Assembly: GCF_964204865.1 (NCBI RefSeq)
Contig: NC_135258.1
Span: forward strand, 4,827,001 to 4,891,000
DNA length: 64,000 nucleotides
Reading direction: 5' to 3'
Origin: Styela clava
Taxonomy: Eukaryota; Chordata; Ascidiacea; Stolidobranchia; Styelidae
Positions 3,328 through 63,116 of the stretch are shown piece after piece. How positions within the stretch are numbered: the stretch's first letter is position 1; every line of letters begins with the position of its first letter. The translations under genes and the position numbers were made by a program. The notes under the pieces are model-generated. The model saw only the letters and a program-made list of their open reading frames with translations, was not told the DNA's origin and made no database searches.

Positions 3328-3329
3328 AT

Positions 3330-4836: not shown

Positions 4837-5949
4837 ACAAAAACGGTAGAAAGTGGTCTGTTGGGGTGAAATTACCTTTTTTCGCCAGATTCCCCGAATC
4901 TTTTGTATGTTCATTGTTTTGTTCTGTGTATGATTTTTCTGGGAAATCAAAACAAATTTCAAAAAATTTGAAAAATCCTCGATTAATAATAGCTAGTTCA
5001 GGCACAGAAGAAAGTTTACCTTAACCAAATTCTCGAGATGAAAAAATAATGAATAGCGGCAACCATAGTTTGTGAGCCAGTCGATCGTTTACCATAGGTT
5101 TTGTTTACCATAGGTTTTGAATATTCGGACCAGCCGTGCCTCAAGGCCTGATATTGTACAAAATTCAACGAGCCCAAAAAATACACGAGAGTTATAGCAG
5201 GATACGATGTAGTCTGTATTATTAAAATGTGACATGATAACAAACACTTATGTTAAAGCCGTCTCGTTCACAAAGAGTCTAGCATAATAAGAGATAAACT
5301 TCCAGCCTTCGCGTTCAGTAGTGCAGGGGTGGCAAACACGTCGCTGTAGCGCCTGTTGTATGTCCTGAAACAAGACGAATACAGAAATGTGTTAGCGCAA
5401 AATACGATATACACATACGGCAGCGGTTCACGAAGATTGCGCCGCGGGAAGACACTACTTGCTGTAATTGCGCGAGATGCAGTTTATTTATCTTCCGAAC
5501 TGAGTTTAGCGAACGTAAATGATTTTTAGCATTTCAAAATCAGGCAGAGCAAGGTAAACTATAAAAAGCATGCAGTATATATTAACGATCACAGAATTCC
5601 TCTTCCCAGAAAAACTCGGTTCAGAAGATAAATAAACTGCATTTCGCGATATTCAAGCTGTCGGCGTCTACATTTATTGTTACGTAACAAATTCTGAAAC
5701 TGTGGTAGGTAATTGCTTGACACAGATTAAATAGTACTCGGTAGTTTCGCGGGCAGATAAAAGTTACACGAATTAGATTAGAGTCCGATTCATTTATTTA
5801 TGCAGGCGTGCAAGCACGGATTTCTTTCAGTCTAATATCGCTGGAGGCAATTTGGCTTATTTGTTACAATGACGCCTTTTTAACGAAAAGGTAATTAAAT
5901 CAATATAATTCGATCAAAGTTATGACAGCAATCCAAGTCATTATAAATG
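4837..5949. other. Intergenic, with solo hAT-like ends
   Basis: No gene is recognised. A hAT-type terminus, CAGGGGTGGCAAAC, lies at about 5323. A second, CAGCGGTTCACGAAG, at about 5414 begins a stretch to about 5560 that resembles the interior of the hAT-type element at 36200-36717 (TTGCTG...GCAGTTTATT...AGCATTTCAA). No matching right ends were found. Confidence 0.4.
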
Positions 5950-9023: not shown

Positions 9024-9827
9024 AGCTGAGTTTTCGAATATCTTTGAATTCCAAGAATATATTAAAGAACGTTGAAAATTAAAATTCCGAGAGGATTACT
9101 TACCATCCGCAGAAATGAATACACCTTCAGACGAGTCGTCTTATATCTCGATTATCCATAAACTGGGTAAGCTTCAGAATTTTAGTGAACATGTTTTAAT
9201 CATCAATCGTAGCATATTCTTTACGCATGAATGCTGACGATACGCGCGGCGCTTAAAATGAACTTCGGCAACCCTGTCGTTGTTAGTCGGCAATTTTGCT
9301 AGATATTTCTCTAGTGCGGAACTCAAGTATCACAAAAAGCCCTGGGCTTGCTATTATTTGTTAAACAGTGAAGTGCGTTTTCAATACCAAGCAAAGTTTC
9401 ATTACATTGATTCCGATACGGACTGAGTGTTTGTGATACGGCTTGACCGTACAGTTGTCATCATGCAGCTTAATCTATAATGCTTGGAAATTTAACTATT
9501 TACGGGATCAGTTTCTTATTATAGAGTGCCTTTTACGGAAAACTGTATCCGTGAGACTCGTCGGTCGATGTTTCCTTTTTTTATTGAATTATCAAAGGGT
9601 CAGATGTTTTCGAATGGGATTTGGGGAAAATTTGTATAACAGGTCCGCATACTCCTATTTATCTGTATCTTATATGGCTTATTTTTTACCCCACTTCTAT
9701 TTAAGAATAAATTATCTTATGTAGATATCGCATATAAAGAGACTTTATTTGGTATATGTATTTATATTGTAGCCAACTTCTTGTTATTCAATGTTCTGAT
9801 GAATACTTTTAGATATCAGTAACTAAA
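9024..9827 (+). promoter_or_regulatory. 5' flank of the intact zinc-finger gene, conserved with copy A
   Basis: About 700 bp upstream of the start codon align closely with 3334-4080 in front of pseudogene copy A. The duplication therefore included upstream DNA, probably the promoter and any 5' exon. The match ends near 9760. A possible splice acceptor (ACTTTTAG at about 9805-9812) lies just before the ATG, so a non-coding 5' exon is possible. No specific promoter element can be proven. Confidence 0.5.
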
Positions 9828-11075
9828 ATGAAAAAGAATAAACAAAGTGAGTTGCACGAATGCGGTGTTTGTGGTAAAAGTTTTCGTTGGATTAGTCAAC
9901 TCAGAAACCATCAAAACACACACACTGAAGAACGACCACATAAGTGTGAAATATGTGGCAAGGGATTTACACTGAATGGTAACTTGAGACGTCATTTGCG
10001 ATTGCACTTTCCTGATGAGCAGAGTAAGTTGCAAGAATGCGATATTTGTGGTAAGCGTTTTCGTTGGATTAGTCAACTTAGAAACCATCAAGCGACACAC
10101 ACTGGAGAACGACTACATAAGTGTGAAATTTGTGACAAGGCATTTACTCATATAAGTTACTTGAAACGCCATCTAAAATTGCACTTTCCTGACAGCAACA
10201 GCAAGCAACAGAAATGCGAACTTTGCAAGAAAGTTCTCGTCCATGCGCAAAATATGACTATCCACATGAGACAACATACAGGAGAAAACCCATATAAATG
10301 TGAAAAATGTGGAAAGGGCTTTTGTCACAATAGTAAACTGAGAAAACATATAATTCGACATATGAAGCTATTTGTGTGTGAAATTTGTGGGTGGTCCTTC
10401 GACTGTAAGTCACACCTTTCTGACCATATTCTCACTCATACAAAAGAGAAACAATTTGAGTGCACCCGTTGTAATAAATATTTTGCACGCAAAAGTAATT
10501 TTAGGTTGCATATGAGACGACATACTGATGAATATCAATTCAAATGTGAAATATGTGGCGTCATCAAGGTGCAACAATGCGAACTGAATTTACATATGCG
10601 TACACATACAGGTGAAAAACCGTATATTTGTAAATTATGTGGGAAATCGTTTATGACATCAGGTAATCTGAATACCCATTTGCAGACTGCGCACTTCAAC
10701 AAAAAGCCTTTTGCTTGCGAGGTATGTGGAAATAAATTTACTCGACAAAGTAGTCTGAATACCCATTTGCAGACTGCTCACTTAAACAAAAAGCCTTTTG
10801 CATGCGAGGTATGTGGAAATAAATTTACTCGACAAGGTAGTCTGAATACTCATTTGCAAACAGCACATTCCAACGCAAAGCCTTATGAATGTGAGATATG
10901 TGGAAAGAGATTTGTCGTACAAGCATATGTCAACGCCCACATGAAGCGTACCCATTCGAAATGCAAAAGTCTCTTAAATACAGACAAAGTTGCAACTGAT
11001 CACGTTTATTCAGAAAGCACCATTATTCCCTACGAGTTCGATCAAAACGAGAAGATAATGCAGCATCTTAACTAA
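9828..11075 (+). CDS. C2H2 zinc-finger protein, 13 fingers
   Basis: This 415-residue open frame is made almost wholly of C2H2 zinc fingers, so the product is probably a nuclear sequence-specific DNA-binding protein. I count 13 fingers between residues ~10 and ~375. Many linkers are TGEKPY-type, and longer linkers (FPDEQSK, FPDSNSK) split fingers 2/3 and 4/5. Fingers 10-12 are near copies (each NTHLQTAH, with CEVCGNKFTRQ in 11 and 12), showing recent internal finger duplication. Finger 9 (CGVIKVQQCELNLH) lacks the usual central Phe. No KRAB, SCAN, BTB or ZAD domain precedes the fingers. The ~40-residue tail has no recognised motif. The start is the first ATG and leaves only nine residues before finger 1; a stop lies five codons upstream. 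It is the only intact member of three tandem copies. Confidence 0.9.
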   Translation: MKKNKQSELHECGVCGKSFRWISQLRNHQNTHTEERPHKCEICGKGFTLNGNLRRHLRLHFPDEQSKLQECDICGKRFRWISQLRNHQATHTGERLHKCEICDKAFTHISYLKRHLKLHFPDSNSKQQKCELCKKVLVHAQNMTIHMRQHTGENPYKCEKCGKGFCHNSKLRKHIIRHMKLFVCEICGWSFDCKSHLSDHILTHTKEKQFECTRCNKYFARKSNFRLHMRRHTDEYQFKCEICGVIKVQQCELNLHMRTHTGEKPYICKLCGKSFMTSGNLNTHLQTAHFNKKPFACEVCGNKFTRQSSLNTHLQTAHLNKKPFACEVCGNKFTRQGSLNTHLQTAHSNAKPYECEICGKRFVVQAYVNAHMKRTHSKCKSLLNTDKVATDHVYSESTIIPYEFDQNEKIMQHLN

Positions 11076-12522: not shown

Positions 12523-14265
12523 TGCACTACTTCGCACTCCGTTTTCGCAGCTGCTGCTGGAACAAAAATTATAGGTACAACGTCTTGGGCCTTATCAATC
12601 AAAAAATTCGAGAAAAACCGCCATGTTCTCGGTCGATTGATAGATGTTTTGAAGTTCATTGGTTGTCACGAGCTGTCCCTCCGTGGGCACGATGAACGGG
12701 CTGGCTCTTCTAATAGAGGGGTATTTTTGGATATGGTGGAATACACCGCATCCCTAGATACAGTATTGAGAGATCATCTTGATGCCGCAACTGTTTCGAA
12801 AGGGACATCTAAGGATATCCAAAATGATTTGCTCGATTCAATGTATAAAATTTATTTACAACATTTGGCTCGGGAAATTGAGAATTGCCAGTTCCTTTCG
12901 ATTCAGTCCGACGAGACAACTGACATCACGTGCGTTTCCCAACTGGCTGTGATTTTTCGGTTTGTGAAAGATGGTAAACCTACCGAGAGATTTCACAGCT
13001 TTGTACCAATCGTTGATCGCACGGCTTGCGGGATATCGGCTGTACTGAAAGAAGTGTTACAGCCTTACAACGCAAAGTCAAAATTGATAGCTCAAACTTA
13101 TGACGGCGCGGCAGTCATGAGTGGGTCGAAACATGGTGTTCAAGTTTATATAAAAGAAGATTTTCCTCATGCGCATTTTTTACATTGTTATGCACACCAA
13201 TTTAACCTCGTTATTAAAAATATGTGTCTTGATACCCCTCTCGTCCGTATATTTTTTGCAAATGTTTCGGGGTTTTCTTCATTTTTTTCCGTTTCGCCGA
13301 AGCGCTTTGACCTCCTTCGCCAGATATGTAGCCGCCGTCTCCCAGCTTGTGCACCAACACGTTGGAACTTCCAATCACGCGTGGTGCAGGGCGTGTCCGA
13401 AATTAGGTCTGAGCTCATTGAGTGTTTCAATGGCATTCAGAGCTCTCCGGTTTGGGACGAACGCTCTGTGAGGGAGGCGGCAGGTCTAAAGCGTCTGCTA
13501 GAAGATGGCGAGTTTTCATTTTTTCTCGCTTTTTTCTCCACAATATTCTATCACGTGGATATATTATACGGCGCATTGCAGTCAAGGCTAATGGATGGAG
13601 CGTCTGTGCAGTCGTGTATTTCAGACTTCTGCGATGCTGTATCTCGTATCCGGGAAACAATAAAATACGACGACACATGGAGTGCTTCTTTACGCCGCGG
13701 GCAAACAACGCAGCGTTTGATTTGGTCTGCAAAGGAATGCTGTGACATTCTGGTGAATCAAATAGGCGATCGTCTGCGCACTGAACACCTTGCCGCGTTC
13801 TCTTTGATGAACCCCAAAAATTTTTCAAAATTTGCACGTCAATTTCCCATCCATTTGTTGGATACTGTCTCCAAATTTTACCCCATGATAAACGTGGGTA
13901 AATTGGAAAATGAATTGCGATGTATATACACCAATCAAACTTTTTTGAACATCACATCAACTTGCGCGCTCTATGGGTTCCTCATAGATAACACTCTAGT
14001 AACTACCTTGGCGGCGTCTGCAAAATTTCTGGACATCATTTTGACGACGCCTATTTCTTCCGCCGACGCAGAGCGAACATTCAGCACGCTGAAGCGTATA
14101 AAAACGTATCTCAGAAACACAATGAAGCAAGATAGATTAAATTCCTTGGCTGTTTTATCCATTCACAGAGACGTTATTTCTGGGATGCATGACTTTAATC
14201 AGCGCGTTATTGAGCATTTTGCTTCCAAGAAACCGCGGCGTGTTGCATATATGTTCAAGCAGTAG
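12523..14265 (+). pseudogene. hAT transposase, ZMYM1-like, lacking the N-terminal zinc finger
   Basis: The long frame encodes ~580 codons from the preceding stop; the first in-frame ATG is at 12733. A DUF4371-like region carries SDETTD (12907-12924), with the first catalytic Asp. TYDGAAVMSG (about 13096-13125) has the second Asp, and LHCYAHQ holds the CxxH pair typical of hAT. The C-terminal dimerisation block has SADAERTFSTLKR (about 14059), with the conserved Glu. Upstream, a separate short frame, 12509-12574, encodes MNKVDALLRTPFSQLLLEQ, the usual start of this protein type, then stops. The TTF-type zinc finger normally lying between these parts (well over 100 residues) is missing. The catalytic core therefore looks intact while the DNA-binding N-terminus is lost. 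I score it as a defective transposase. Confidence 0.85.
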
Positions 14266-38021: not shown

Positions 38022-38861
38022 TTATTTTTTCATAAAAATGAAAAACAATGAATAAGTTATTATCACATCAACATCTTTATCTGCCGTATGGGGAATTTTC
38101 CAGCACTCATTCAACTTTTGAAATAATCTATCGTAGGCATTCACCGAAAAACTGTCAGAAAATTTCTGAAATATTGGCACGGTCATTTCATCTTCCTTGA
38201 ACTTTTTAAAGCTAGTGCGAATCTTAAATTTCACTTCGTCATCTCGCCATTTCTGCAATTTTGTGTCGATTCCATCATATATAGCTTGATAGCGATCACT
38301 AACGTGTTGTTGTGGGTGATTTAATTTTTTGACGTAATCAGTAAGAGGCTTGAAGTACAATTCTTTGAAAACTCCATATCCTGATTTTGCATCTTTAGCG
38401 CCGTCTTCCATTTCAATATTTGATATTTCAAACCCATACGCAGCAACCATGCCTTTGGGCTTTAGCACCCGTTCGCATTCACCTACAAAATTTGTTACAT
38501 CCATGAAATGCAACGAAAAACAACTTGTAACCAAATCGACGCTTCCGTCTCCACAGGGAAAAGCATCAGAGTTACCAACGGCGTAAGACACGTTTTCTTC
38601 CAATTCCATCTCTTGAGCTAGTTTTACTTGCTCGGAACTGATGTCGAATCCTATGATTGAATTGAAATTAGGCGAAAAGGCTCTTGTCGATCTTCCACTG
38701 CCGCATCCAGCGTCGACCATAAATTGAAACTTCACACCCTCATCAGATATTTCGCCGTAGCATTTTCCTAACTCGTTTAAAATTTTTGTAGTTATCGCGG
38801 AATCCAACGATGATTGCTTGGAATATTTTATGGCAGCATCTCTGCTACTGAATTCATTCAT
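38022..38861 (-). CDS. Class I SAM-dependent methyltransferase, intronless
   Basis: A single 279-residue frame starts at an ATG (38861) and ends with TAA. Residues 49-58 (VDAGCGSGRS) are the glycine-rich SAM-binding motif I. The acidic residue of GFDIS (~71-75) should bind the ribose hydroxyls. GNSDAFP (~96-102) is the adenine-contacting motif, and RVLKPKGMVAAYGF (~131-144) is the post-motif strand. The family is Methyltransf_11/25-like, cytosolic, with small-molecule acceptors. The C-terminal 130 residues carry no domain I can name, and the substrate cannot be assigned. The absence of introns is unusual beside multi-exon neighbours and could mean a retrocopy or horizontal origin. No poly(A) tract or direct repeats were noticed to prove the former. 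Confidence 0.85.
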   Translation of the reverse strand: MNEFSSRDAAIKYSKQSSLDSAITTKILNELGKCYGEISDEGVKFQFMVDAGCGSGRSTRAFSPNFNSIIGFDISSEQVKLAQEMELEENVSYAVGNSDAFPCGDGSVDLVTSCFSLHFMDVTNFVGECERVLKPKGMVAAYGFEISNIEMEDGAKDAKSGYGVFKELYFKPLTDYVKKLNHPQQHVSDRYQAIYDGIDTKLQKWRDDEVKFKIRTSFKKFKEDEMTVPIFQKFSDSFSVNAYDRLFQKLNECWKIPHTADKDVDVIITYSLFFIFMKK

Positions 38862-39552
38862 AATATTGTATATTTAGTAGTTTCTGAAACAGCAGTTCCA
38901 AACCTTTTTCGTTAAATTCCTCTTTTTCTCTATTCCGGAACCCCCCACTATAAACTGCTATATTTATTCAGTCTTCAATCGATCCTTGCTTAGTGTTATG
39001 CGCAAGTCTCATCCTCGCTTTTGTACAGTTAAATATAGTAAAAATATAAATCATTTAGTTGTTGCAGAAATATGTATTGTAATATTACTAAATGAGTAGA
39101 GAATACTATAGTAGTCACAAATATTCAAAGTAAAGTTTTCCTCTCCTAGAACAATAAAGTTATACACAGAGACAACACAACAAAAAATTAAGTCTCAACA
39201 GTTCAAACAGAAACTAGATTTAAACATCATTTCTTGAATTTTCCGTATAAGAACAATTTTTTATTTTTCACAAAATTATAACACACATTTCGCGTAAAAG
39301 TACGTCTCTCACTACTGGTTTTGGCACATTGTATTGTACTAAGCTCTATTACGTCACAACCTATAAATAATAAACGGACATAGCTGAGTTTTATGATGAT
39401 CAAACATTCGTATGATTCAAATACGAACTCTATGTTTTCTCAGCAAACAACGCCGATATGCCCTTTTGAACCGCATCTTTATTGATAAATTCCTCACTTG
39501 GCTCATTCCTCTGGATATAATTCTGTTTTCGTGTATTTTACAGTCTTAAATT
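38862..39552. promoter_or_regulatory. Upstream flank of the methyltransferase gene
   Basis: AT-rich with no clear TATA element or repeat. It would hold the promoter of the minus-strand gene. No coding sequence was recognised. Confidence 0.3.
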
Positions 39553-46326: not shown

Positions 46327-49300
46327 GTAAACATGTGCCGCTGTATCACCCGATGGCTTGATATCTAGAGTGAATGAGTGTTGGGGAATAGGATAGTAGC
46401 ATGACGAAATTTTCTAATAAATATTACGGTACGCTGTTTTGAGTTAGGGTGGATAAGAACAGATAAAATTTGTATTTATCAATAAAGTATAGTGTTTAGG
46501 GTTAGGTTAGGATAAGCAAAATTTGTACTTGAAAATGAGATGTGTGTTTAAATTTGTAGCACAATTGAGTTTATGTTCAATAGTTACATATATTAATTTT
46601 GTTATTAAAGGTTAAAGCTATTATTATATTGAAAGTGCTTCACCTCTTCTTTCTAATGAATTATTAGTGATGATGATGATTGAATACAAATTTAGAAATT
46701 TATATGGGTTTGAAGTTGTCAAGGCCTTGAATCCTTTGGGAACTCATGGAAAGATCGGTCACGCTGTTTCTCAGACGTTGCAGAGCACCCGTATACGACA
46801 CAGTACACCATATTCAATTTTTTTATCGTCTAATATGCTGAATATTGAGTCGAAATAATCTTATACTAGTATTTTAGCCAGTCTTTGAAAGATAGTAAAC
46901 AAGTTCTGAGGTTCAATAAAACACCGGTACGTTATGCTTCATGTTCTACAGTACCCTACCATGGGAAACTCACATTTTTACAAGCTAATATGCCAAAAAA
47001 AGGATGCAAAAAAATGCCAAGTACTTGAAAACAACGAAGAAACGCAGCAAGTGCAGTTTCATGATGAGTGTAAATCGTTGCTGGGGGTTTACGTCGTTGA
47101 CCAACCAGAGAAAAGGTTTGGTTTACTGCCGTATATTCTGGCAAAGTTAGAAATAACCCAAGATAGTGAACATTGGAATCCCTCCCTTCGATTTTGTCGT
47201 ATCAATCCATGTATACGTACCGGTGACGGTACATTTGAACCCACGTACATTTTCACCCATGTGTATATCCGCTGGTTTAATCTATATGCGGGTGCTAAAA
47301 CCCATGGGTTAGGGTTAGCCATTTAACACTAAACCTATGGTTTCGGAAAACCATTTTCAAGATATGTTTTGGAACCACTAGTTTGCCCACTTCCCAATTT
47401 GAACAGGCCAATTTGGATGAGGTTTGGGATATTATAAGGTAGCTCAATAGTCACTCCAAAATTAATTAGAATAATCGTATTGCGAAAGCAATAAAATACC
47501 TTCTAACGAAATTGCTGTATCGCCCGCTTCTCCTTGCACAGGCTCCTCGCCCGCTCCTCCTTGCACAGGCTCCTCGCCCGCTCCTCCTTGCACAGACTCC
47601 TCGTCCGCTTCTTCTTGCACAGGCGGGTAAACACGTGCCGCTGTATCACCCGATAGCTTGATATCTAGAGTGAATGAGTGTTGGGGATTAGGATAGTAGC
47701 ATGACGAAATTTTCTAATAAATATTACGGTACGCTGTTTTGAGTTAGGGTGGATAAGAACAGATAAAATTTGTATTTATCAATAAAGTATAGTGTTTAGG
47801 GTTAGGTTAGGATAAGCGAAATTTGTACTTGAAAATGGGATGTGTGTTCAAATTCGTAGCACGACTGAGTTTATGTTCAATAGTTACATTTATTAATTTT
47901 GGTATTAGAGGTTAGAGCTATTAATATATTGAAAGTGCTCCATCTCTTCTATCTAATGAATTATTAGTGATGATGATGATTGAATACAAATTTAGAACTT
48001 TATATGGGTTTGAAGTTGTCAAGGCCTTGAATCCTTTGGGAACTCATGGAAAGATCGGTCACGCTGTTTCTCAGACGTTGCAGAGCACCCGTATACGACA
48101 CAGTACACCATATTCAATTATTTTATCGTCTAATATGCTGAATATTGAGTCGAAATAATCTTATACTAGTCCTGTAGCCAGACTTTGAAAGATAGTAAAC
48201 AAGTTCTGAGATTTAACAAAATACCGGTACGTTATGCTTCATGTTCTACAGTACCCTGCCATGGGAAACTCACATTTTTACAAGCAAATAGGCCAAAAAA
48301 AGGATGCAAAAAATGTCAAATACTTGAAAACGACAAAGAAACGCAGCAAGTGCAGTTTCATGATGAGTGTAAATCGTTGCTGCGGGTTTACGTCGTTGAC
48401 CAACCAGAGAAAAGGTTTGGTTTACTGCCGTATATTCTGGCAAAGTTAGAACTAACCCAAGATAGTGAACATTGGAATACCTCTCTTCGATTTCGTCGTA
48501 TCAATTCATGTATACGTTTTGGTGACCATACATTTGAACCCATGTGTATTTCCGCTGGTTTAATCTATATGCGGGTGCTAAATCCCATGGGTTAGGGTTA
48601 GCCATTTAACACTAAACCTATGGTTTCGGAAAACAATTTTCAAGTTATGTTTAGGAACCACTAGTTTGCCCACTTCCCAATTTGAACAGGCCAATTTGGA
48701 TGAGGTTTGGGATATTATTAGGTAGCTCAATAGTCACTCCAAAATTAATTAGAATAATCGTATTGCGAAAGCATTAAAATACCTTCTAACGAAGTTGCTG
48801 TATTGCCCGTTCCTCCTTGCACAGGCTCCTCGTCCGCTCCTCCTTGCACAGACTCCTCGCCCGCTCCTTCTTGCATAGACTCCTCGCCCGCTCCTCCTTG
48901 CACAGGCGGGTAAACATGTGCCGCTGTATCACCCGATGGCTTGATATCTAGAGTGAATGAGTGTTGGGGATTAGGATAGTAGGATGACGAAATTTTCTAA
49001 TAAATATTACGGTACGCTGTTTTGAGTTAGGGTGGATAAGAACAGATAAAATTTGTATTTATCAATAAAGTATAGTGTTTAGGGTTAGGTTAGGATAAGC
49101 AAAATTTGTACTTGAAAATGAGATGTGTGTTCAAATTCGTAGCACGACTGAGTTTATGTTCAATAGTTACATTTATTAATTTTGGTATTAAAGGTTAGAG
49201 CTATTAATATATTGAAAGTGCTCCATCTCTTCTTTCTAATGAATTATTAGTGATGATGATTGAATACAAATTTAGAACTTTATATGGGTTTGAAGTTTTC

Positions 49301-50094
49301 AAGGCTTTGGATCCTTTGGGAACTCGTAGAAAGATCGGACACGCTGTTTCTCAGACGTTGCAGAGCACCCGTATACGACACAGTACACCATATTCAATTA
49401 TTTTATCGTCTAAAATGCTGAATATTAAGTCGAAATAATCTTATACTAGTCCTATAGCCAGTTTTTGAAAGATAGTAAACAAGTTCAGAGGTTCAATAAA
49501 ATACCGGTACGTTATGCTTCATGTTCTACAGTACCCTGCCATGGAAAACTCACATTTTTACAAGCAAATATGCCAAAAAAAGGATGCAAAAAAATGCCAA
49601 ATAGTTGAAAACAACAAAGAAACGCAGCAAGTGCAGTTTCATGATGAGTGTAAATCGTTGCTGCGGGTTTACGTCGTTGACCAACCAGAGCAAAGGTTTG
49701 GTTTAGTTTCTGGCAAAGTTAGAAGTAACCCAAGATAGTGAACTTTGGAATACCTCTCTTCGATTTCGTCGTATCAATCCATGTATACGTTTCGGTGACC
49801 GTACATTTGAACCCACGTTCATTTGATCCCATGTGTATATCCGCTGGTTTAATATATATGTGGGTGCTAAATCCCATGGGTTAGGAATAGCCATTTAACA
49901 CTAAACCTATGGTTTCGGAAAACCATTTTCAAGTTATGTTTAGGAACCACTAGTTTGCCCACTTCCCAATTTGAACAGGCCAATTTGGATGAGGTTTGGG
50001 ATGTTATTAGGTAGCTCAATAGTCACTCCAAAATTAAGTAGAATAATCGTATTGCGAAAGCATTAAAATACCTTCTAACGAAGTTGCTGTATTG

Positions 50095-50280
50095 CCCGCT
50101 CTTCCTTGCACAGGCTCCTCGCCCGCTCCTCCTTGCACAGGCTCCTCGCCCGCTCCTCCTTGCACAGACTCCTCGCCCGCTCCTCCTTGCACAGACTCCT
50201 CGCCCGCTCCTCCTTGCACAGACTCCTCGCCCGCTCCTTTTTGCATAGACTCCTCGCCCGCTCCTCCTTGCACAGGCGGG
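50095..50280 (+). repeat. 27-bp minisatellite, unit 4 (about 7 copies, expanded)
   Basis: The same 27-bp core as in the other units, with about seven copies. This accounts for the extra ~70-80 bp of the fourth unit. Open frames of 63-79 codons on both strands here are minisatellite translations, not genes. Confidence 0.85.
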
Positions 50281-53200
50281 TAAACATGTGCCGCTGTATC
50301 ACCCGATGGCTTGATATCTAAAGTGAATGAGTGTTGGGGAATAGGATAGTGGGATGACGAAATTTTCTAATTAATATTACGGTACGCTGTTTTGAGTTAG
50401 GGTGGATTAGAACAGATAAAATTTGTATTTAACAATAAAGTATAGTGTTTAGGGTTAGGTTAGGATAAGCAAAATTTGTACTTGAAAATGAGATGTGTGT
50501 TTAAATTTGTAGCACAATTGTGTTTATGTTCAATAGTTACATATATTAATTTTGTTATTAAAGGTTAAAGCTATTATTATATTAAAAGTGCTTCACCTCT
50601 TCTTTCTAATGAATTATTAGTGATGATGATGATTGAATACAAATTTAGAACTTTATATGGGTTTGAAGTTGTCAAGGCCTTGAATCCTTTGGAAACTCAT
50701 GGGAAGATTGGTCACGCTGTTTCTCAGACGTTGCAGAGCACCCGTATACGACACAGTACACCATATTCAATTTTTTTATCGTCTAATATGCTGAATATTG
50801 AGTCGAAATAATCTTATACTAGTATTTTAGCCAGTCTTTGAAAGATAGTAAACAAGTTCTGAGGTTCAATAAAACACCGGTACGTTATGCTTCATGTTCT
50901 ACAGTACCCTACCATGGGAAACTCACATTTTTACAAGCTAATATGCCAAAAAAAGGATGCAAAAAAATGCCAAGTACTTGAAAACAACAAAGAAACGCAG
51001 CAAGTGCAGTTTCATGATGAGTGTAAATCGTTGCTGGGGGTTTACGTCGTTGACCAACCAGAGAAAAGGTTTGGTTTACTGCCGTATATTCTGGCAAAGT
51101 TAGAAGTAACCCAAGATAGTGAACATTGGAATCCCTCCCTTCGATTTTGTCGTATCAATCCATGTATACTTACCGGTGACGGTACATTTGAACCCACGTA
51201 CATTTTAACCCATGTGTATATCCGCTGGTTTAATCTATATGCGGGTGCTAAAACCCATGGGTTAGGGATAGCCATTTAACACTAAACTTATGGTTTTGGA
51301 AAACCATTTTCAAGATATGTTTTGGAACCACTAGTTTGCCCACTTCCCAATTTGAACAGGCCAATTTGGATGAGGTTTGGGATATTATTAGGTAGCTCAA
51401 TAGTCACTCCAAAATTAATTAGAATAATCGTATTGCGAAAGCAATAAAATACTTTCTAACGAAATTGCTGTATCGCCCGCTTCTCCTTGCACAGGCTCCT
51501 CGCCCGCTCCTCCTTTCACAGGCTCCTCGCCCGCTCCTCCTTGCACAGACTCCTCGTCCGCTTCTTCTTGCACAGGCGGGTAAACATGTGCCGCTGTATC
51601 ACCCGATAGCTTGATATCTAGAGTGAATGAGTGTTGGGGATTAGGATAGTAGCATGACGAAATTTTCTAATAAATATTACGGTACGCTGTTTTGAGTTAG
51701 GGTGGATAAGAACAGGTAAAATTTGTATTTATCAATAAAGTATAGTGTTTAGGGTTAGGTTAGGATAAGCAAAATTTGTACTTGAAAATGAGATGTGTGT
51801 TCAAATTCGTAGCACGACTGAGTTTATGTTCAATAGTTACATTTATTAATTTTGGTATTAAAGGTTAGAGCTATTAATATATTGAAAGTGCTCCATCTCT
51901 TCTTTCTAATGAATTATTAGTGATGATGATTGAATACAAATTTAGAACTTTATATGGGTTTGAAGTTTTCAAGGCTTTGGATCTTTTGGGAACTCGTAGA
52001 AAGATCGGACACGCTGTTTCTCAGACGTTGCAGAGCACCCGTATACGACACAGTACACCATATTCAATTATTTTATCGTCTAAAATGCTGAATATTAAGT
52101 CGAAATAATCTTATACTAGTCCTATAGCCAGTTTTTGAAAGATAGTAAACAAGTTCAGAGGTTCAATAAAATACCGGTACGTTATGCTTCATGTTCTACA
52201 GTACCCTGCCATGGAAAACTCACATTTTTACAAGCAAATATGCCAAAAAAAGGATGCAAAAAAATGCCAAATAGTTGAAAACAACAAAGAAACGCAGCAA
52301 GTGCAGTTTCATGATGAGTGTAAATCGTTGCTGCGGGTTTACGTCGTTGACCAACCAGAGAAAAGGTTTGGTTTAGTTTCTGGCAAAGTTAGAAGTAACC
52401 CAAGATAGTGAACTTTGGAATACCTCTCTTCGATTTCGTCGTATCAATCCATGTATACGTTTCGGTGACCGTACATTTGAACCCACGTACATTTTAACCC
52501 ATGTGTATATCCGCTGGTTTAATCTATATGCGGGTGCTAAAACCCATGGGTTAGGGATAGCCATTTAACACTAAACTTATGGTTTTGGAAAACCATTTTC
52601 AAGATATGTTTTGGAACCACTAGTTTGCCCACTTCCCAATTTGAACAGGCCAATTTGGATGAGGTTTGGGATATTATTAGGTAGCTCAATAGTCACTCCA
52701 AAATTAATTAGAATAATCGTATTGCGAAAGCAATAAAATACTTTCTAACGAAATTGCTGTATCGCCCGCTTCTCCTTGCACAGGCTCCTCGCCCGCTCCT
52801 CCTTGCACAGGCTCCTCGCCCGCTCCTCCTTGCACAGACTCCTCGTCCGCTTCTTCTTGCACAGGCGGGTAAACATGTGCCGCTGTATCACCCGATAGCT
52901 TGATATCTAGAGTGAATGAGTGTTGGGGATTAGGATAGTAGCATGACGAAATTTTCTAATAAATATTACGGTACGCTGTTTTGAGTTAGGGTGGATAAGA
53001 ACAGATAAAATTTGTATTTATCAATAAAGTATAGTGTTTAGGGTTAGGTTAGGATAAGCAAAAGTTGTACTTGAAAATGAGATGTGTGTTCAAATTCGTA
53101 GCACGACTGAGTTTATGTTCAATAGTTACATTTATTAATTTAGGTATTAAAAGTTAGAGCTATTAATATATTGAAAGTGCTCCATCTCTTCTTTCTAATG

Positions 53201-54919
53201 AAATATTAGTGATGATGATTGAATACAAATTTAGAACTTTATATAGGTTTGAAGTTGTCAAGGCTTTGGATCCATTGGGAACTCATGGAAAGATCGGTCA
53301 CGCTGTTTCTCAGACGTTGCAGAGCACCCGTATACGACACAGTACACCATATTCAAATATTTTATCGTCTAATATGCTGAATATTGAGTCGAAATAATCT
53401 TATACTAGTCCTGTAGCCAGTCTTTGAAAGATAGTAAACAAGTTCTGAGATCTAACAAAATACCGGTACGTTATGCTTCATGTTCCACAGTACCCTGCCA
53501 TGGGAAACTCACATTTTTACAAGCAAATAGGCCAAAAAAAGGATGCAAAAATTGTCAAATACTTGAAAACGACAAAGAAACGCAGCAAGTGCAGTTTCAT
53601 GATGAGTGTAAATCGTTGCTGCGGGTTTACGTCGTTGACCAACCAGAGAAAAGGTTTGGTTTACTGCCGTATATTCTGGCAAAGTTAGAACTAGCCCAAG
53701 ATAGTGAACATTGGAATACCTCTCTTCGATTTCGTCGTATCAATTCATGTATACGTTTTGGTGACCATACATTTGAACCCACGTACATTTTAACTCATGT
53801 GTATTTCCGCTGGTTTAATCTATATGCGGGTGCTAAATCCCATGGGTTAGGGTTAGCCATTTAACACTAAACCTATGGTTTCGGAAAACCATTTTCAAGT
53901 TATGTTTAGGAACCACTAGTTTGCCCACTTCCCAATTTGAACAGGCCAATTTGGATGAGGTTTGGGATGTTATTAGGTAGCTCAATAGTCACTCCAAAAT
54001 TAATTAGAATAATCGTATTGCGAAAGCATTAAAATACCTTCTAACGAGGTTGCTGTATTGCCCGTTCCTCCTTGCACAGGCTCCTCGTCCGCTCCTCCTT
54101 GCACAGACTCCTCGCCCGCTCCTTCTTGCATAGACTCCTCGCTCGCTCCTCCTTGCACAGGCGGGTAAACATGTGCCGCTGTATCACCCGATGGCTTGAT
54201 ATCTAGAGTGAATGAGTGTTGGGGATTAGGATAGTAGGATGACGAAATTTTCTAATAAATATTACGGTACGCTGTTTTTAGTTAGGGTGGATAAGAACAG
54301 AGAAAATTTGTATTTATCAATAAAGTATAGTGTTTAGGGTTAGGTTAGGATAAGCAAAATTTGTACTTGAAAACGAGATGTGTGTTCAAATTCGTAGCAC
54401 GACTGAGTTTATGTTCAATAGTTACATTTATTAATTTTGGTATTAAAGGTTAGAGCTATTGATATATTGAAAGTGCTCCATCTCTTCTTTCTAATGAATT
54501 ATTAGTGATGATGATTGAATACAAATTTAGAACTTTATATGGGTTTGAAGTTGTGAAGGCTTTGGATCCATTGGGAACTCATGGAAAGACCGGTCACGCT
54601 GTTTCTCAGACGTTGCAGAGCACCCGTATACGACACAGTACACCATATTCAATTATTTTATCGTCTAATATGCTGAATATTGAGTCGAAATAATCTTATA
54701 CTAGTCCTATAGCCAGTTTTTGAAAGATAGTAAACAAGTTCTGAGGTTCAATAAAATACCGGTACGTTATGCTTCATGTTCTACAGTACCCTGTCATGGG
54801 AAACTCACATTTTTACAAGCTAATATGCCAAAAAAAGGGTGCAAAAAATGCCAAATACTTGAAAACAACAAAGAAACGCAGCAAGTGCAGTTTCATGATG
54901 AGTGTAAATCGTTGCTGCG

Positions 54920-55867: not shown

Positions 55868-56105
55868 CTATTCAAACTACAGCGATCCAGAAGTATGTGT
55901 ACCAATATGGAGGTAACTAATTTTGTTCGCCCATTTTACATCAAGTTGTGTAAGGGGACTGAAACCTATGGACGGGGGGGTATTCACTTGGCTAACGTAG
56001 ACAGTCCTCGCAATCGAACTAAAATAAGGAAAATCGGAATAAAATTATGGCCTAACCCTAACCTGGTACACATACTTCGGGAGTACCCAAACTACGGCTC
56101 CAACT
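55868..56105. mobile_element. GGGCGCTCC-family MITE, second long form
   Basis: It starts near CCAGAAGTATGTGTACCAAT and ends ACACATACTTCGGGAGTACCC. The interior is closely related, inverted, to the element in lectin intron 3 at 26375-26605, including TTGTTCGCCCATTTTACATC and GGGACTGAAACCTATGG. The short plus-strand frame inside (55895-56128) is element sequence. Confidence 0.65.
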
Positions 56106-56357
56106 CCAGCGGACTAGCAACTGAATGAGCGAACGAGCGTCAAATGATTAGGCCATTTTATAGATTTTCTTTGTTCTGAGATAACTGGTGTTCAAATTTT
56201 ATATCGCAATCATTAAAATACCTTTCTTTGAATCGTTCGAACAATTTTCCATGGGTGCGTGAATATGAGCCATTGTTTGGTGGTTTGACGTCCCGGCCGT
56301 ACCTTTCTCTATAGTGAAGTAGACCTTAAAAGTTTGAGAGTGCATTAGTTTTCTTCA

Positions 56358-57711
56358 GAGACACTAGATTATGGTATGTTGCTTGTTACGTGATCTAAAA
56401 ACGTGTAATATCAGACATTCATGTTGCGTTAATGAATAACTAACTTGGGTACAATACGCCGAGGAGTGGAATACATTTTCAAATCAATAAAACGTCATTG
56501 TCTTCTCTCCCTACTCGCACATTAAAATCAGGTTCAAACAGTTGTGGTTCTTTCACGAATATTTGTAGTAGGTAAGTACCAACTCGAAAAGAGCAACCAT
56601 GCTCATTCACGACATCAGAAGTTCTCACCTCTTTTGCCAAAGTCGATATAACATGGTATCGTTCATTATTGGTGAATGAGTAAAGTATTTCGTATTGTAG
56701 CAAGGTCATAATGGTAGAGAGCGATTTTCTGTAACAAATGGAATTCGTTTAATATTCCAGCGATAATAATCGCTTTAATCTGGATGTGGGATGAGCTACG
56801 ACTGATGCAATGCTCAATGCAGTGGGTAGAATATTTTTGCGACTAGGCCTTTAGGTTGTAGTTGGAGTGAAAGTTTTGCCTTTTTGCTGTTATAAAAGTA
56901 GGGACAGACGTTGTTCTTAAACATTTTATAGAAGCGAGAGTGAAATGCTTAGTCTGCTTCGAAGTAATCGGAGACCAAATTTCAGACTTCCAAACGTCGT
57001 AATTAGTCTGTTATGCTGAAACAGACAAAAGCTTGAGACACTAGATTATGGTATGTTGCTTGTTACGTGATCTAAAAACGTGTAATATCAGACATTCATG
57101 TTGCGTTAATGAATAACTAACTTGGGTACAATACGCCGAGGAGTGGAATACATTTTCAAATCAATAAAACGTCATTGTCTTCTCTCCCTACTCGCACATT
57201 AAAATCAGGTTCAAACAGTTGTGGTTCTTTCACGAATATTTGTAGTAGGTAAGTACCAACTCGAAAAGAGCAACCATGCTCATTCACGACATCAGAAGTT
57301 CTCACCTCTTTTGCCAAAGTCGATATAACATGGTATCGTTCATTATTGGTGAATGAGTAAAGTATTTCGTATTGTAGCAAGGTCATAATGGTAGAGAGCG
57401 ATTTTCTGTAACAAATGGAATTCGTTTAATATTCCAGCGATAATAATCGCTTTAATCTGGATGTGGGATGAGCTACGACTGATGCAATGCTCAATGCAGT
57501 GGGTAGAATATTTTTGCGACTAGGCCTTTAGGTTGTAGTTGGAGTGAAAGTTTTGCCTTTTTGCTGTTATAAAAGTAGGGACAGACGTTGTTCTTAAACA
57601 TTTTATAGAAGCGAGAGTGAAATGCTTAGTCTGCTTCGAAGTAATCGGAGACCAAATTTCAGACTTCCAAACGTCGTAATTAGTCTGTTATGCTGAAACA
57701 GACAAAAGCTT
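56358..57711. repeat. Exact-looking 677-bp tandem duplication
   Basis: 56358-57034 and 57035-57711 appear identical base for base in every stretch I compared. The repeat starts GAGACACTAGATTATGG and ends ACAGACAAAAGCTT, and GAGA follows both copies, giving a 4-bp microhomology at the junction. Each copy contains the whole last exon, with its acceptor, of the caspase-like gene. Confidence 0.9.
56479..56728 (-). pseudogene. Duplicated last exon of the caspase-like gene (distal copy)
   Basis: It is identical in length and translated sequence to 57156-57405, with the same TTTGTTACAG acceptor and stop. It lies downstream of the proximal copy, so splicing would normally stop at the first. Use of this copy instead would give the same protein with a different 3' UTR context. 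Confidence 0.7.
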
Positions 57712-60700
57712 GAGAAATTTATTGGATTTTGATTGAGTTAAGTTTTCATTACCGGAGTTAACGACTGGAGTCCGTATTTTATCAGCAGGAAAGTCAAAGT
57801 TAATAGAGCATTTCTCTCAGTTAAAAAGATGGTTGCAAGTTACAACAAAGATGACTGTAAATTAAAAGATTGATTCTGAGATCGTATCCATGTGGTATTC
57901 ATTATAAAAGATTTAGAACAAATTTACAACAAAAGAGTGAGATGCAAGCGATTCTCTCAAATCTGATACTTTTAACATAGCTGAACTTGACTTTACAGAA
58001 CATTAATTTTGCGCATAGCAATTCCCTTTCCCACAACTTACCTTGGATGACCGGTTAATATTTCTGCGAATATTTTTATAAAATCTCTCAAAGTCGATCG
58101 CAGGACAAATGTATCAGCGTAAGTTGGAAATGTTGTAGGCTCGTCGTCATTCCATAGATTCTTATCGTCATAGATATCTATTCTGTTCTGAAAAAAGACA
58201 ACTTTTGATATCTTCCTGCCCCATATCGCAATATTTTTGAAATTATTCCAAGTGTTTCGTGATGACCACACATTAGCATTCTGGAAAACCAGTTTAATTT
58301 TAGCGAATCGCAGAGATACTTCCAATTGTATTGGACTGATTTGTATGAAAACAACGAAATTTTTATAAATCTTATGAAAAAGTTGCGGCCATTGCGAAGG
58401 GTTTTATTCCCACCATTGCTCACCTGGAAGAAAAATACTTTTGGTTTTCCGTTAAGACTCGGAAATTCATCCGGATTGAAGGATTGCACTACTTCATTCA
58501 TTGTAATAGACGAGTTGTCTGCAGTTTCAATAAGTCTGTCGTTTCCTGAAATGAGTAATATAGGCAAAAAACACAAGAAGAGAGAATATTTACTGGTGAT
58601 CGAACAGGGATTGCATTTTCGATTTATTTAAAGTGTTGGACTCTAATGAGTTAGAAGTTCAAAATTTCAACAGAAATCAAAAATAAAATTCTTGGACCTC
58701 AAAGTTCATTTGTGAAATAATGGACTTCAGAAATTTTATGGTTATCAGATTGCACCTTTTTTCGATTTCGTAGCCGAGTTATAGCTGGTCAGCTCACAAA
58801 CCGCACAATGGTAAAAACGGAATGCGTGGTACACGTGGGACGTATGTGCAAGCGGTACACGTGGTACGGGAAGTGCATAGCAAATCATTTTCAAAAGATT
58901 TTCAAATAAGATTTTTTGTTCAATAAATGTACACACCGGTAGAAAGAACAAAACACACAAGACATCCATAATCGTCAAAATTCCTTGACCTTGCTGGATT
59001 AAAAATCGACTCCATTTTCAGACATTCGTGAAACTCCACTTTGTAACCGGCGCTGGTGAAGAACTTGCGAAGAGAAGCTAAACGAGTTCATCGAAAAAAA
59101 AGGTAATGAACTAAAATTGAAGGGTCAAGCAAGCGAATGTAGTACGACCTGGAAGTTATATGTATCAATGTGCATGAATTATGGACTTTTGCAAAAAAAT
59201 ACCTTATTGGCGATGTAACGATTTGCTATTTGCCTTTCAACTGTTTTAATTCATCCTTATAATTAAATTAACTGTTTTTACGTTTATTAAATTATGCACA
59301 GTGAATAAGGCATTTTATGCGCAATGCGCAAAGATTTACGAGAAAATAACAAAGTCACTGACCTGCTGGGCGTAAATACTTTGTAATGTTATTTATAATG
59401 ATGCACAGTCCAACGTGCTTCGTTTCTGAGCACCTAAAATATAATATATATAGATAGATAGATAATTCCAATTCTCTCAAGTATTGAATTCACCAATTGC
59501 ATTTGCTGCTTATTAAAAAGTCTTGGGAAAGCATGTTTGAAACCAGTGTTATTGAGAATCGAATCAGTGACCAGAATCAAACTCGAGTCACGTAAACGAA
59601 AACACTCAAACTAAACACCAGAGTGATTCGACTTTGGTTTTTAAAAAATTGAAAATTTTCAGTATTCGAACAACGACGAATTCGGTGACATTCGATACTT
59701 TAACTGGCCAGTGGATGGTTGTTAGCCATTTCATGGATGGTCCGAACATAAAATGTATTATGTGATGTATTTATTATCTGTAGAATCAGTAGTCATGAGA
59801 ACATAGTATAGATAACTATGCTGAACTATATAGCTATGTTATCTCTTCAATGGATTTTGTATTAGCTTACGGATAGGTGCCGAAAATGGGTACAATTGTT
59901 TGCGTTTTGACGGCTGTTTCGAAATAATGATTAGGTTGTGAGACATTTAAGATAGGTCTGAGTTTGCGACCTCCTTAATATAAACACAAGTTCGAATTTC
60001 TTATCCGTGGTCTTACGTATATTATCGGTTGTGGCACCATTTTGTTCGAATATTAAACAAGGAAACATTAAAGATAATTTGATTAAATTAGAATTTAAAT
60101 CTCTACTAGGCGAATATTAACAAGGATTTATAATTTTTTTTCACAAATATTGGCCCAATGGGGTGAATTGCTCTTTAACATTTTTCTGTTTATAAGAATT
60201 CAAGAAAACGCTTCTAAAAAGGGAAGGGCTTACCTGTGAAAAAATTGTTATATAAAATGGGCTGAGACAAAGGGATTTCAGTGGGTCCTCGTTGTTACTA
60301 AATCTTAATCCCAATTTGCTCCTTTCTTGAATTTAATGTTTTTTAAATCGCCACGTTTGCACATGATAATATAAATTAACGTTAAAAAATAATATATTTA
60401 TGCATCGATAACATTGGCATTTTTACAGGTTAGTGGTAACTTGCAGCATTTTTATGAGTGACCTCATTGCTCTCAAGATTGGCTCTCTACAACACCTTTA
60501 AACTAACTTACATTAGGAATGGAAAGTTTTTCAGAAAGAAATTTAGTAGTGTTAATACTATTTCGAATTATGATTTGAAATATTACTTACACATACGTTT
60601 TTTTGGGAGGTACTTCACAGCCGACATCTTCTGCCAAATTGATCCTGTAACAAACAGAAATATATCTATCACAACCCGGTAGGCGCCTAGGATCTCCGCT

Positions 60701-60915
60701 GATACGCAATCCCGCAGTGCTAGCCGCTGCAAAACACCTCCCCGTCGTACCTTTGCATACTTCTTCACAAGAATGGTTTCCGGTACAATGGAATGGCTAG
60801 TGGACTGTACGCTATGCGGGTCCTCTTCAATCTGACTATTGCTGCAACATTCGTTCAATTTTGCCTTTGTTTGTGCTCCCAATAATCGTCTTATAGTTTT
60901 TTTTCGCCTAGGCAT
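57156..60915 (-). CDS. Caspase-fold protein lacking catalytic His and Cys (pseudocaspase), 7 exons
   Basis: My spliced model on the minus strand: 60761-60915, 60597-60644, 59363-59433, 58937-59077, 58424-58545, 58042-58187, 57156-57405; 310 residues. Introns are GT-AG and all six phases agree. Residues 1-68 are a basic, Ser-rich prodomain without CARD or DED. The p20-like part starts HVGLCIIINN (74-83), then SLRKFFTSAGYKVEFHE (93-109), GCLVCFVLSTG (129-139) and PSLNGKPKVFFFQ (167-179). In caspases the last two read ...LSHG and ...FFIQACRG; here His is Thr138, and Q179 is followed by Asn-Arg with no Cys. The p10-like part has FPTYADTFVLRSTLRDF (199-215) then IKIFAEIL, missing the GYYSWRN..GSW pocket loop. 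The last exon supplies the final helices and strand (TYLLQIFVKEPQLF). An alternative acceptor (exon to 58280) adds 31 residues, still no active-site Cys. Likely a non-proteolytic caspase homologue; partner unknown. Confidence 0.8.
57712..58041. other. Part of intron 6 of the pseudocaspase gene
   Basis: Intronic sequence between the tandem duplication and the donor at 58040-58041 (CAAG|GTAAGT on the minus strand). AT-rich; no exon or repeat recognised. Confidence 0.5.
58188..58280 (-). other. Alternative 5' extension of pseudocaspase exon 6
   Basis: A second good acceptor, ACTGGTTTTCCAG, precedes 58280. The 93 nt to the downstream acceptor (GTCTTTTTTCAG) are open and in frame, adding 31 residues (NANVWSSRNTWNNFKNIAIW...). 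Both acceptors follow pyrimidine-rich tracts, so either or both may be used. Confidence 0.5.
59434..60596. other. Intron 2 of the pseudocaspase gene
   Basis: A 1.16-kb intron from donor GTATGT (minus strand, at 60591-60596) to acceptor TATATTTTAG before 59433. No repeat or nested gene was identified; several minus-strand open runs lack splice and phase support. Confidence 0.5.
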
Positions 60916-61935: not shown

Positions 61936-63116
61936 TCACACTGGTGTCTTGAGGAGTCTTTTACCAACCGAGACTATGCATCTGGAACTGAAAAGACTAT
62001 TTCGATGCCCTACCGCGCTGCGAAAAATCATGGGTCGCCATATATGAACGGTTTTACTAATTTATATCTTTCCCAGCAGACAAATATCAAAATGTCCGAT
62101 TCCGCAAAATATACCAAATCATCTTAACTTTTCTTTATGATTACCTGGCTTTAAGATTTTGCTTTGCGTATCGTCTCCTCATTGCCGCATTTCTCCTCTC
62201 GCTATCTCGATCACTAGCTATTTTCTTTTCTTCGAATTCTTTTTCGAGTTTTGCTATTTTCGGGTCATCATTATGTTCGGCTGAATATGTAAAACCATCT
62301 TGGTCAGTCTTTGAAGTGTCTATGACGTCTGCAAAAGATTATGAAGACAAACATAAATCTTGAACAAAATTGATTTTCGCTTTGTCGAACAGCTATACAC
62401 AGCATAGGATTTACATATTTATCCAAGGGGAGATGAAAGCCGATAAAACGTCTCAATTACATGCGAACCACTCTTGTCCGGTTACCATTCCTGACCGATA
62501 TGTTCGTCAATTATTTCAGAGGCATGTGCTTGATAGTAAAGGAACCGTAACAGAACAGCTGCTGTGTGAACACCCTATGACGACGAAGAGCTTAGCAATT
62601 CTTTCGCTCATAATTACCCCCCACGTAATTCGAACCTAAGAACTCGTTTATGGCAATTAGAGATATGATGGCGAGTGTATTCTAAATGCTGAACACGATT
62701 CGCCTCGGGTATTGTGCAATGGTTACAACCTTATTTGTGTGAATTGGGGTTTTTCAATTTTGCTAGTTCGTCTTGTGCTTTGTCACTCGAAAAAAATATG
62801 GTGATTTTATTCTTGAATGCCAAAATTTTCTAACCAAAATTTGTGATCTCGAGGTGGATAGTTACAGTCGAAATTTTTACATCAAAAGTAGAACTTCGAA
62901 TTCTGTCAAATCTTATTTATTTCAGCAAAATCAGAAATTTTTATGAATATTTTTGATAATTTTGTTCGTTGGAACCTTGAAGTTCGTCCTTACCTTGGGA
63001 AACTTCGCTACTGCCTTCCAATGGATCTTTGTTATCCCCCACACCCTCTTCCGTATCCATAAGAAACTTGTCGCTATCTCCTTGTCCACTGGATACATAG
63101 TCCAAATTGGAAGAAT
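61936..63116 (-). CDS. Partial gene: acidic and coiled-coil protein, three exons
   Basis: Three minus-strand exons join in phase: 62994-63116, 62145-62328 and a likely terminal exon 61936-62017. The first encodes an acidic stretch (SSNLDYVSSGQGDSDKF, MDTEEGVGDNKDPLEGSSE). The second is acidic then a basic coiled-coil-like helix (DDPKIAKLEKEFEEKKIAS, RDSERRNAAMRRRYAKQ). The third is short (GHRNSLFSSRCIVSVGKR) and ends at TGA; it is the least certain. Splice sites are CAAG|GTAAGG, CCAG|GTAATC, CTACAG and TTTGCAG. The 5' part is missing: upstream exons lie beyond what I could recognise or outside the window. I do not recognise the family. It lies upstream of, and in the same orientation as, the pseudocaspase gene. 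Confidence 0.5.

Follow-up and report, generated by a model that had tools for sequence, protein, structure and literature searches.

The window considered here, the whole analysed stretch of 64,000 nt from the ascidian Styela clava (C10:4827001-4891000), carries on its minus strand a caspase-like gene of at least eight exons, 62328-56199, together with a probable ninth exon at 63116-62994 (positions are those of the window unless another locus is named). Open reading frames (ORFs) were compared with two neighbouring loci and the exons were then spliced by hand. The eight-exon model comprises 313 codons with a single terminal stop, the exon interiors are free of stops and frameshifts, and every junction is of the GT/AG type with matching phases, in agreement with an earlier note on this DNA, made from the letters alone, which had described intact splice sites without frameshift. 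That note had drawn a spliced, in-phase caspase chain of seven exons over 57156..60915; the continuous chain stood, its two ends did not. The proposed start near 60915, an ORF opening with MPRRKK, is without counterpart in the paralogue C10b described below, and the exon at this place starts at 60644 and measures only 54 nt; the proposed end at 57156 (VRTSDVV...DVLLI) corresponds to intron read-through past the donor of exon 7, the true last exon being 56324-56199. The upstream exon 62328-62145 had been missed, and likewise the probable one at 63116-62994.

The genome (376.6 Mb, 379 contigs) was searched with protein queries, exon by exon, and the member counts given here are lower bounds. Three further loci of the same family were found: C10b (L029; 5029049-5036998, plus strand), 59% identical to the window protein; C10c (L030; minus strand, exons within 4917761-4913641 and exon 7 at 4911280-4911181), 38% identical over the 154 residues modelled; and C3 (L031; 10732486-10735487), 36% identical. 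Of the 28 matches in the first family search, the four loci account for 14 and other caspases for 12 (including C14:17869308 and C3:4096095, which were not read), and 2 are weak; of the 21 in the second, 12 belong to the four loci and 9 to other caspases. Two candidate members were discarded, L027 (C2), a weak match that contains a stop and beside which no flanking caspase exons were seen, and L028 (C17), a weak match only. All four genes have an exon 3 of 71 nt and an exon 7 of 100 nt; no counterpart of exon 2 turned up in C3 or C10c, and none of exon 1 in C10c. Since the three paralogous loci share both the lesions described below and the exon structure, the caspase-like chain in the window is more than a product of chance.

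Read from the 5′ end, the gene begins in the model with exon 1 (62145..62328), a charged N-terminal segment, VIDTSKTDQDGFTYS...ERRNAAMRRRYAKQNLKA, which ends in phase 2 and is 56% identical to the C10b exon over 55 amino acids (E=3e-19). Exon 2 (60591..60644), INLAEDVGCEVPPKKTYV, starts after 'ttacag' and has its 54 nt and its phases in common with the C10b counterpart. Exon 3 (59363..59433) encodes the first caspase strand, GLCIIINNITKYLRPA, aligned to GLCIIINN of caspase-3, and exon 4 (58937..59077) the remaining core of the large subunit (p20), with loop 1 shortened at the 5′ border and the sequence CFVLST|G at the end, where the Thr codon 58938-58940 stands at the place of the catalytic His. 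Exon 5 (58424..58545), NDRLIETADN...GKPKVFFFQ, ends with the Gln after which active caspases have Ala-Cys-Arg-Gly, and exon 6 (58042..58187), NRIDIYDDKNLW...YADTFVLRSTLRDFIKIFAEILTGHP, starts right after this Gln, lacks Ala-Cys-Arg-Gly and carries the block YxDxFVxRSTxRD. It is followed by exon 7 (57306..57405), KSLSTIMTLLQYEILYSFTNNERYHVISTLAKE, with the donor GAG|gtgaga and with the same phases in all four paralogues, and by exon 8 (56199..56324), VYFTIEKGTAGTSNHQ...ILMIAI and stop, 42% identical to its C10b counterpart over 43 amino acids (E=4e-8). The last exon opens with V-Y-F in the window gene, in C10b (5036867-5036998) and in C3 (10735455-10735487), and the C3 protein ends shortly afterwards, as VYFGQNESSL.

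Upstream of exon 1, an acidic exon at 62994..63116 on the minus strand (SSNLDYVSSGQGDSDKFLMDTEEG...SSEVSQ) is in phase 1 at both ends, with the acceptor tctactacag and the donor CAAG|gtaagg, and its phase fits the next exon. An acidic ORF of the same phase lies upstream of C10b (L029 ~2187-2301) and resembles it. This exon is assigned to the window gene as probable only, because the sequence conservation is weak. Pfam was run on eight ORFs upstream of both C10 genes and on the modelled N-terminal exons, and no prodomain or other family was accepted there.

The catalytic His/Cys dyad of active C14A caspases is absent from the window gene. The place of the His is taken by Thr in the window gene, C10b and C10c, and by Lys in C3. 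After the motif KPKxFFxQ the chain continues with NRIDI in the window gene, IGLDF in C10b and NDIDI in both C3 and C10c, so that Ala-Cys-Arg-Gly is missing from all four genes. Both substitutions had been read in the earlier note, CFVLSTG in place of LSHG and KPKVFFFQ followed by Asn-Arg, and both were borne out by hand splicing and alignment. Around TGMTSRSGTDVD, loop 1 of the family is 11 residues shorter in the alignment than that of caspase-3 in the PDB. The loop-1 Arg of caspase-3 is Arg64; whether the family keeps it varies with the alignment used, HMMER pairing an Arg of the family with Arg64 and the profile-profile alignment not doing so.

An active enzyme would still be conceivable if alternative exons that we overlooked supplied the His and the Cys, and the gap at Ala-Cys-Arg-Gly and, by our reading, that in loop 1 do lie at intron borders, where a mini-exon could hide. 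The six-frame scan of the whole 64-kb window, however, contained no Q[AS]C[RQKG]G, and a scan of the gene on its coding strand (62400-56100) gave no SHG and only two instances of xC[RQKE]G, each of which falls within intron 1 (KCRG at 60986, VCKG at 60760). For an exon with HG and QACxG, which the earlier note had named as the observation that would speak against it, no source was seen in the genomic DNA of the gene, neither SHG nor QACxG having been found there. The Thr sits within an exon and is conserved in C10b and C10c. The same motif scan covered L029 2501-9000, with SHG at 3860, 4144 and 6481 and QECR at 3743, and L031 2401-6000, with ICKG at 2699, all of them misplaced and not common to the paralogues. 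We regard an overlooked active form as very improbable.

The large-subunit half of the protein is, on sequence similarity, clearly that of a caspase. The window chain matched Peptidase_C14 (PF00656) with E=7e-12 over residues 87-225, corresponding to profile positions 2-170 of 233, and the chain as spliced in the earlier note, which had proposed this search, matched it with E=3.4e-11; PF00656 was matched by all four family members. In a profile search of the PDB, an ancestral effector caspase obtained by reconstruction was matched with E=1.5e-22, within p20 only, and profile-profile alignment with 11 caspases of the genome (L032, described below, and 10 of 30 further loci) gave a probability of 99.5 and E=2.3e-22 over 204 columns, a whole-domain figure that is carried by p20, since exons 6-8, tested by themselves, fail to align with p10.

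For this second comparison, p10 rows were picked by pattern from L032 and the 30 loci. Exons 6-8 alone against the p10 of 17 active genome caspases gave a probability of 0.3% and E=0.22 in hhalign. In hmmsearch against 16 of them (L006 was dropped as truncated), the scores were 1.4, -0.1, 1.6 and 0.2, no better than shuffled sequence, and were reached by 17, 36, 50 and 24 shuffles, respectively, each out of 250. A supposed kept dimer strand of the caspase type ('STLAKEVYF' against 'SMLTKELYF') was therefore given up, as it came from weak parts of the PDB profile search (0.6 bits) and of the profile-profile alignment, and exons 6-8 fail to align with p10; a third lost loop, at the junction AEG|FYSHRDTLYGSW in L032, rested on the same p10 alignment and was dropped once that failed. 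The C-terminal half matched no accepted Pfam family, two other families appearing at E 0.11 and 0.19 in one member each. It is conserved within the pseudocaspase family itself, with YxDxFVxRSTxRD kept in all four members.

We then compared the window gene with C10b over the 313 codons, a selection test that rests on this one pair of paralogues. By the NG86 method dN was 0.27 and dS 0.93, giving a ratio of non-synonymous to synonymous substitution (dN/dS) of 0.287 (bootstrap 0.193-0.390); LWL85 and YN00 both gave 0.38 and maximum likelihood 0.41. In the p20 part the NG86 ratio was 0.18 (0.08-0.32), and in the N-terminal 79 codons 0.19 (0.10-0.48), where only 351 of 500 draws were usable and dS was 2.0. 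Comparisons with C10c and C3 are near or past synonymous saturation and carry no weight, so that the constraint covers two of the four genes. The exon lengths of the window gene and C10b differ by 0 or by multiples of three in all eight cases. In blastn (E<=1e-3) six of the eight exons matched; of the other two, exon 2 had a 10-nt match with E=0.003, outside the cut-off, and exon 8 was recognisable as protein. Among the six introns compared, five were without a match and the sixth matched over 22 nt.

These data bear on the possibility that the gene is decaying, a caspase copy lately inactivated in which stops have not yet accumulated. The loss of the catalytic residues would agree with this, as would an exact duplication of 681 bp within the gene (see below) and the interval for exons 6-8, which extends to 0.84. 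The lesions, however, are common to the paralogues, from which the window gene is separated by a synonymous divergence of 0.66-0.93 (C10b) or higher; the overall dN/dS is far below 1, and the exon lengths keep the frame. In neutral simulations (500 runs each), the proportion of runs that stayed free of stops was 2.4% at 0.1 substitutions per site, 0.4% at 0.2, and 0% at both 0.35 and 0.45. Decay of the window gene is thus unlikely, indeed improbable by our estimate, because dN/dS is 0.29-0.41, no stop occurs in 313 codons, the exon lengths are frame-keeping and the introns are almost unalignable; a very recent loss is still conceivable. The preference of the earlier note for a functional pseudoenzyme over a decaying gene is supported by the dN/dS values, by the intact frame and by the dead site shared by all four genes. 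In our reading of the sequence, the window gene is very probably constrained and catalytically dead.

Several observations weigh against this reading. If one copy had been unconstrained since the duplication, dN/dS would be expected at about 0.5 or above; this value is excluded by the NG86 intervals for the whole chain and for p20, and not by those obtained with LWL85 (0.255-0.527) and YN00 (0.221-0.608; 200 draws each), nor by that for exons 6-8 alone, where the NG86 ratio was 0.46 (0.24-0.84). No start codon was found for the window gene and nothing was identified upstream of 63116, and the last exon was not found for C10c. The failure of exons 6-8 to align with p10 belongs here as well, since a complete caspase fold with a caspase-type dimer face is not supported by the sequence, although the fold could persist without similarity. 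Finally, there is the tandem duplication, whose copies at 56358..57038 and 57035..57715 are exact over 681 bp at a spacing of 677. The second of these holds the modelled exon 7 and the first a second, identical exon 7. On reading by hand, a transcript that included the two copies one after the other would go out of frame, 100 nt not being a multiple of three, and run into an early stop, so that either the exon-7 copies are used exclusively of one another, or the additional copy is an assembly fault or an allele. The duplication could disturb splicing of this allele, or be a fault of the assembly.

The other caspases of the genome provide a background to the family. Peptidase_C14 had 54 matches in the genome; in the best 30 of them, each read in one open frame, the His was present at the aligned place in 30 and the Cys in 29. 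Among the remaining 24 matches, the C3 pseudocaspase and the active, intron-bearing L032 were read. Of the large set of caspase domains in single open frames (L001-L008, L038-L059), 15 of the 30 read lie on C6 and 7 on C1. L005 (C17:3036067-3036942) is a caspase ORF with the His kept and QTSRG, with Ser for Cys, a second and separate possible inactive caspase; L061 (C14) carries SHG and QFCRQ.

A tree was built from 37 rows and 126 p20 columns, with L053 omitted as a fragment and caspase-8 represented by a fragment of 87 residues. The four pseudocaspases formed one clade (support 100/98), with C10c on a long branch. A branch supported at 99/97 separated 27 of the 29 intronless caspases, as one lineage, from a set of ten that comprises the four pseudocaspases, caspase-3, an ancestral caspase-3/6/7, caspase-8, L032, L001 and L002, and whose inner order the tree leaves unresolved; 'intronless' here means read in one open frame, the gene ends lying outside the model.

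L032 (C14:15009000-15018500) is caspase-6-like, with E=1.4e-54 to caspase-6. Two of its introns, in phase 1 at TTG|GMNSRKGTD and in phase 0 at Q|ACRG, agree in phase with those of the pseudocaspases, which it also matches in exons at 30.7 and 25 bits; unlike them, it retains LSHG, QACRG and both halves of the domain. In all four pseudocaspases, introns of these phases occur there and the missing sequence is that just 3′ of them. As to origin, and compatibly with any function, the splice acceptors may have shifted downstream, so that the beginning of loop 1 and Ala-Cys-Arg-Gly dropped out of the exons. The match of intron places and phases with L032 and the position of the lost sequence directly 3′ of the introns favour such a shift. 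Caspase introns may, on the other hand, simply lie in loops and give the same picture; the HMMER pairing with Arg64 would leave some of loop 1 on the 5′ side of the intron; and inspection by eye of the sequence before the acceptors revealed no trace of lost codons. We consider an acceptor shift possible and doubtful.

Some further features were recorded in and around these loci. A dispersed repeat, TACCAGGTTAGG.TTAGG..CATAATTT..., was seen by eye within or next to introns in several of the caspase genes, at window ~55880-56090, L029 ~3320-3530, L032 ~4640-4960 and L061 ~770-990. On the plus strand of the window, four similar ORFs of 138-151 amino acids lie at 46910-53864 and share VQFHDECKSLLxVYVVDQPEKRFGLLPYILAKLE; the two that were scanned matched no accepted Pfam family, an L38e match with E=0.005 being under its cut-off. 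The plus strand also holds an ORF of a hAT-type transposase at 12523-14265 (DUF4371, Dimer_Tnp_hAT) and a C2H2 zinc-finger ORF at 9813-11075, and the minus strand a methyltransferase in one open frame at 38022-38873 (Methyltransf_11, E=5e-20). Elsewhere in the genome, L060 (C9:16179895-16180164) matched a GH6 glycoside hydrolase with E=1.5e-6 in one exon-sized frame, its neighbouring ORFs looking intron-separated by eye; to our knowledge, GH6 genes among animals are known from tunicates, and the match was taken as a marker that suggests a tunicate source.

The window gene, a member of a family of four in this genome, would encode a pseudoenzyme of caspase descent, which could not cut and would act through binding. 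The protein may bind one or more active caspases, or the adaptors that activate them, and in this way set the threshold of activation, either as a decoy or as an allosteric partner in the manner of cFLIP-L for caspase-8, and the charged N-terminal segment may localise the protein or add contacts. Possible partners would be numerous, given the many apparently active caspases (29 of the 30 read have both residues). Binding to caspases or adaptors is proposed because of the analogy with cFLIP and because constraint in the protein is strongest on its p20 half; it is put forward tentatively, and rated lower than it might have been, because the p10 checks removed the argument from a kept dimer strand. 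The explanation as a whole, a constrained and dead pseudoenzyme that binds active caspases or their adaptors, is one we hold with somewhat less than even confidence.

A role unrelated to other caspases, for instance that of a scaffold, to which the pseudoenzyme would have been recruited, appears about as likely as the partner mechanism. In that case the protein would work through the surfaces of its charged N-terminal part and of the family-specific C-terminal half that carries YxDxFVxRSTxRD, which is consistent with the presence of this block in all four members while the C-terminal half shows neither similarity to caspase p10 nor an accepted Pfam family. The stronger constraint on p20 in the comparison with C10b (0.18 against 0.46) suggests, on the contrary, that a surface of the caspase type still matters. 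A broader scenario, in which the family represents tunicate regulators that arose independently of cFLIP, from an effector-type caspase that lost its catalytic segments at exon borders, with p20 kept as a binding module, a new or changed C-terminal half and at least four genes tuning many caspases, is more speculative and, taken together, rather unlikely.

Few inactive caspases have been studied; the vertebrate one, cFLIP, takes part in the choice between survival and death. cFLIP-L (CFLAR), a vertebrate paralogue of caspase-8, and the window protein are both caspase homologues without catalytic residues, and they differ in that the window gene has no recognisable p10 half. No death effector domain (DED), of which cFLIP has two at its N-terminus, was found in the N-terminal exons modelled for the window gene and for C10b or in the eight upstream ORFs, but the start codon was not found either. 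As to descent from caspase-8/10, the pseudocaspases and the caspase-8 fragment fall in the same set of ten, with no order between them. The parallel with cFLIP drawn in the earlier note is an analogy, a likeness in kind and not a demonstrated identity, in view of the DEDs not found, the unrecognisable p10 and the open placement relative to caspase-8. C. elegans CSP-3 lacks the large subunit and differs in this from the window gene, which has a p20 core. PMC3591282 cites reports that CSP-2 and CSP-3, caspase homologues like the window family, inhibit apoptosis, could not itself replicate the csp-3 effect, and gives VCCRG at the predicted active site of CSP-2, which sets CSP-2 apart.

Pairing of cFLIP-L with caspase-8, which it modulates, is described in parts of PMC4691174 and PMC11121540. 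Caspase-12, presented as a pseudocaspase in PMC11121540, is a proposed modulator of active inflammatory caspases and resembles the window family in this; it differs in being a mammalian inflammatory caspase with a CARD (caspase recruitment domain; PMC2779465). For Ciona, PMC2779465 reports a single casp8-like gene, together with the hypothesis that a duplication gave rise to cflar once ascidians and vertebrates had split; on that view a tunicate pseudocaspase would be independent of cFLIP. In the open-licence literature we found no inactive caspase family of tunicates. If our interpretation is true, a separate, constrained family in a tunicate, standing beside many apparently active caspases, would suggest that regulators have evolved from dead caspases more than once. 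Judged by its sequence, the window gene appears to belong to a known kind, the inactive caspase homologue, in what would be an unusual form, that of a caspase relative recognisable only in its large-subunit half.

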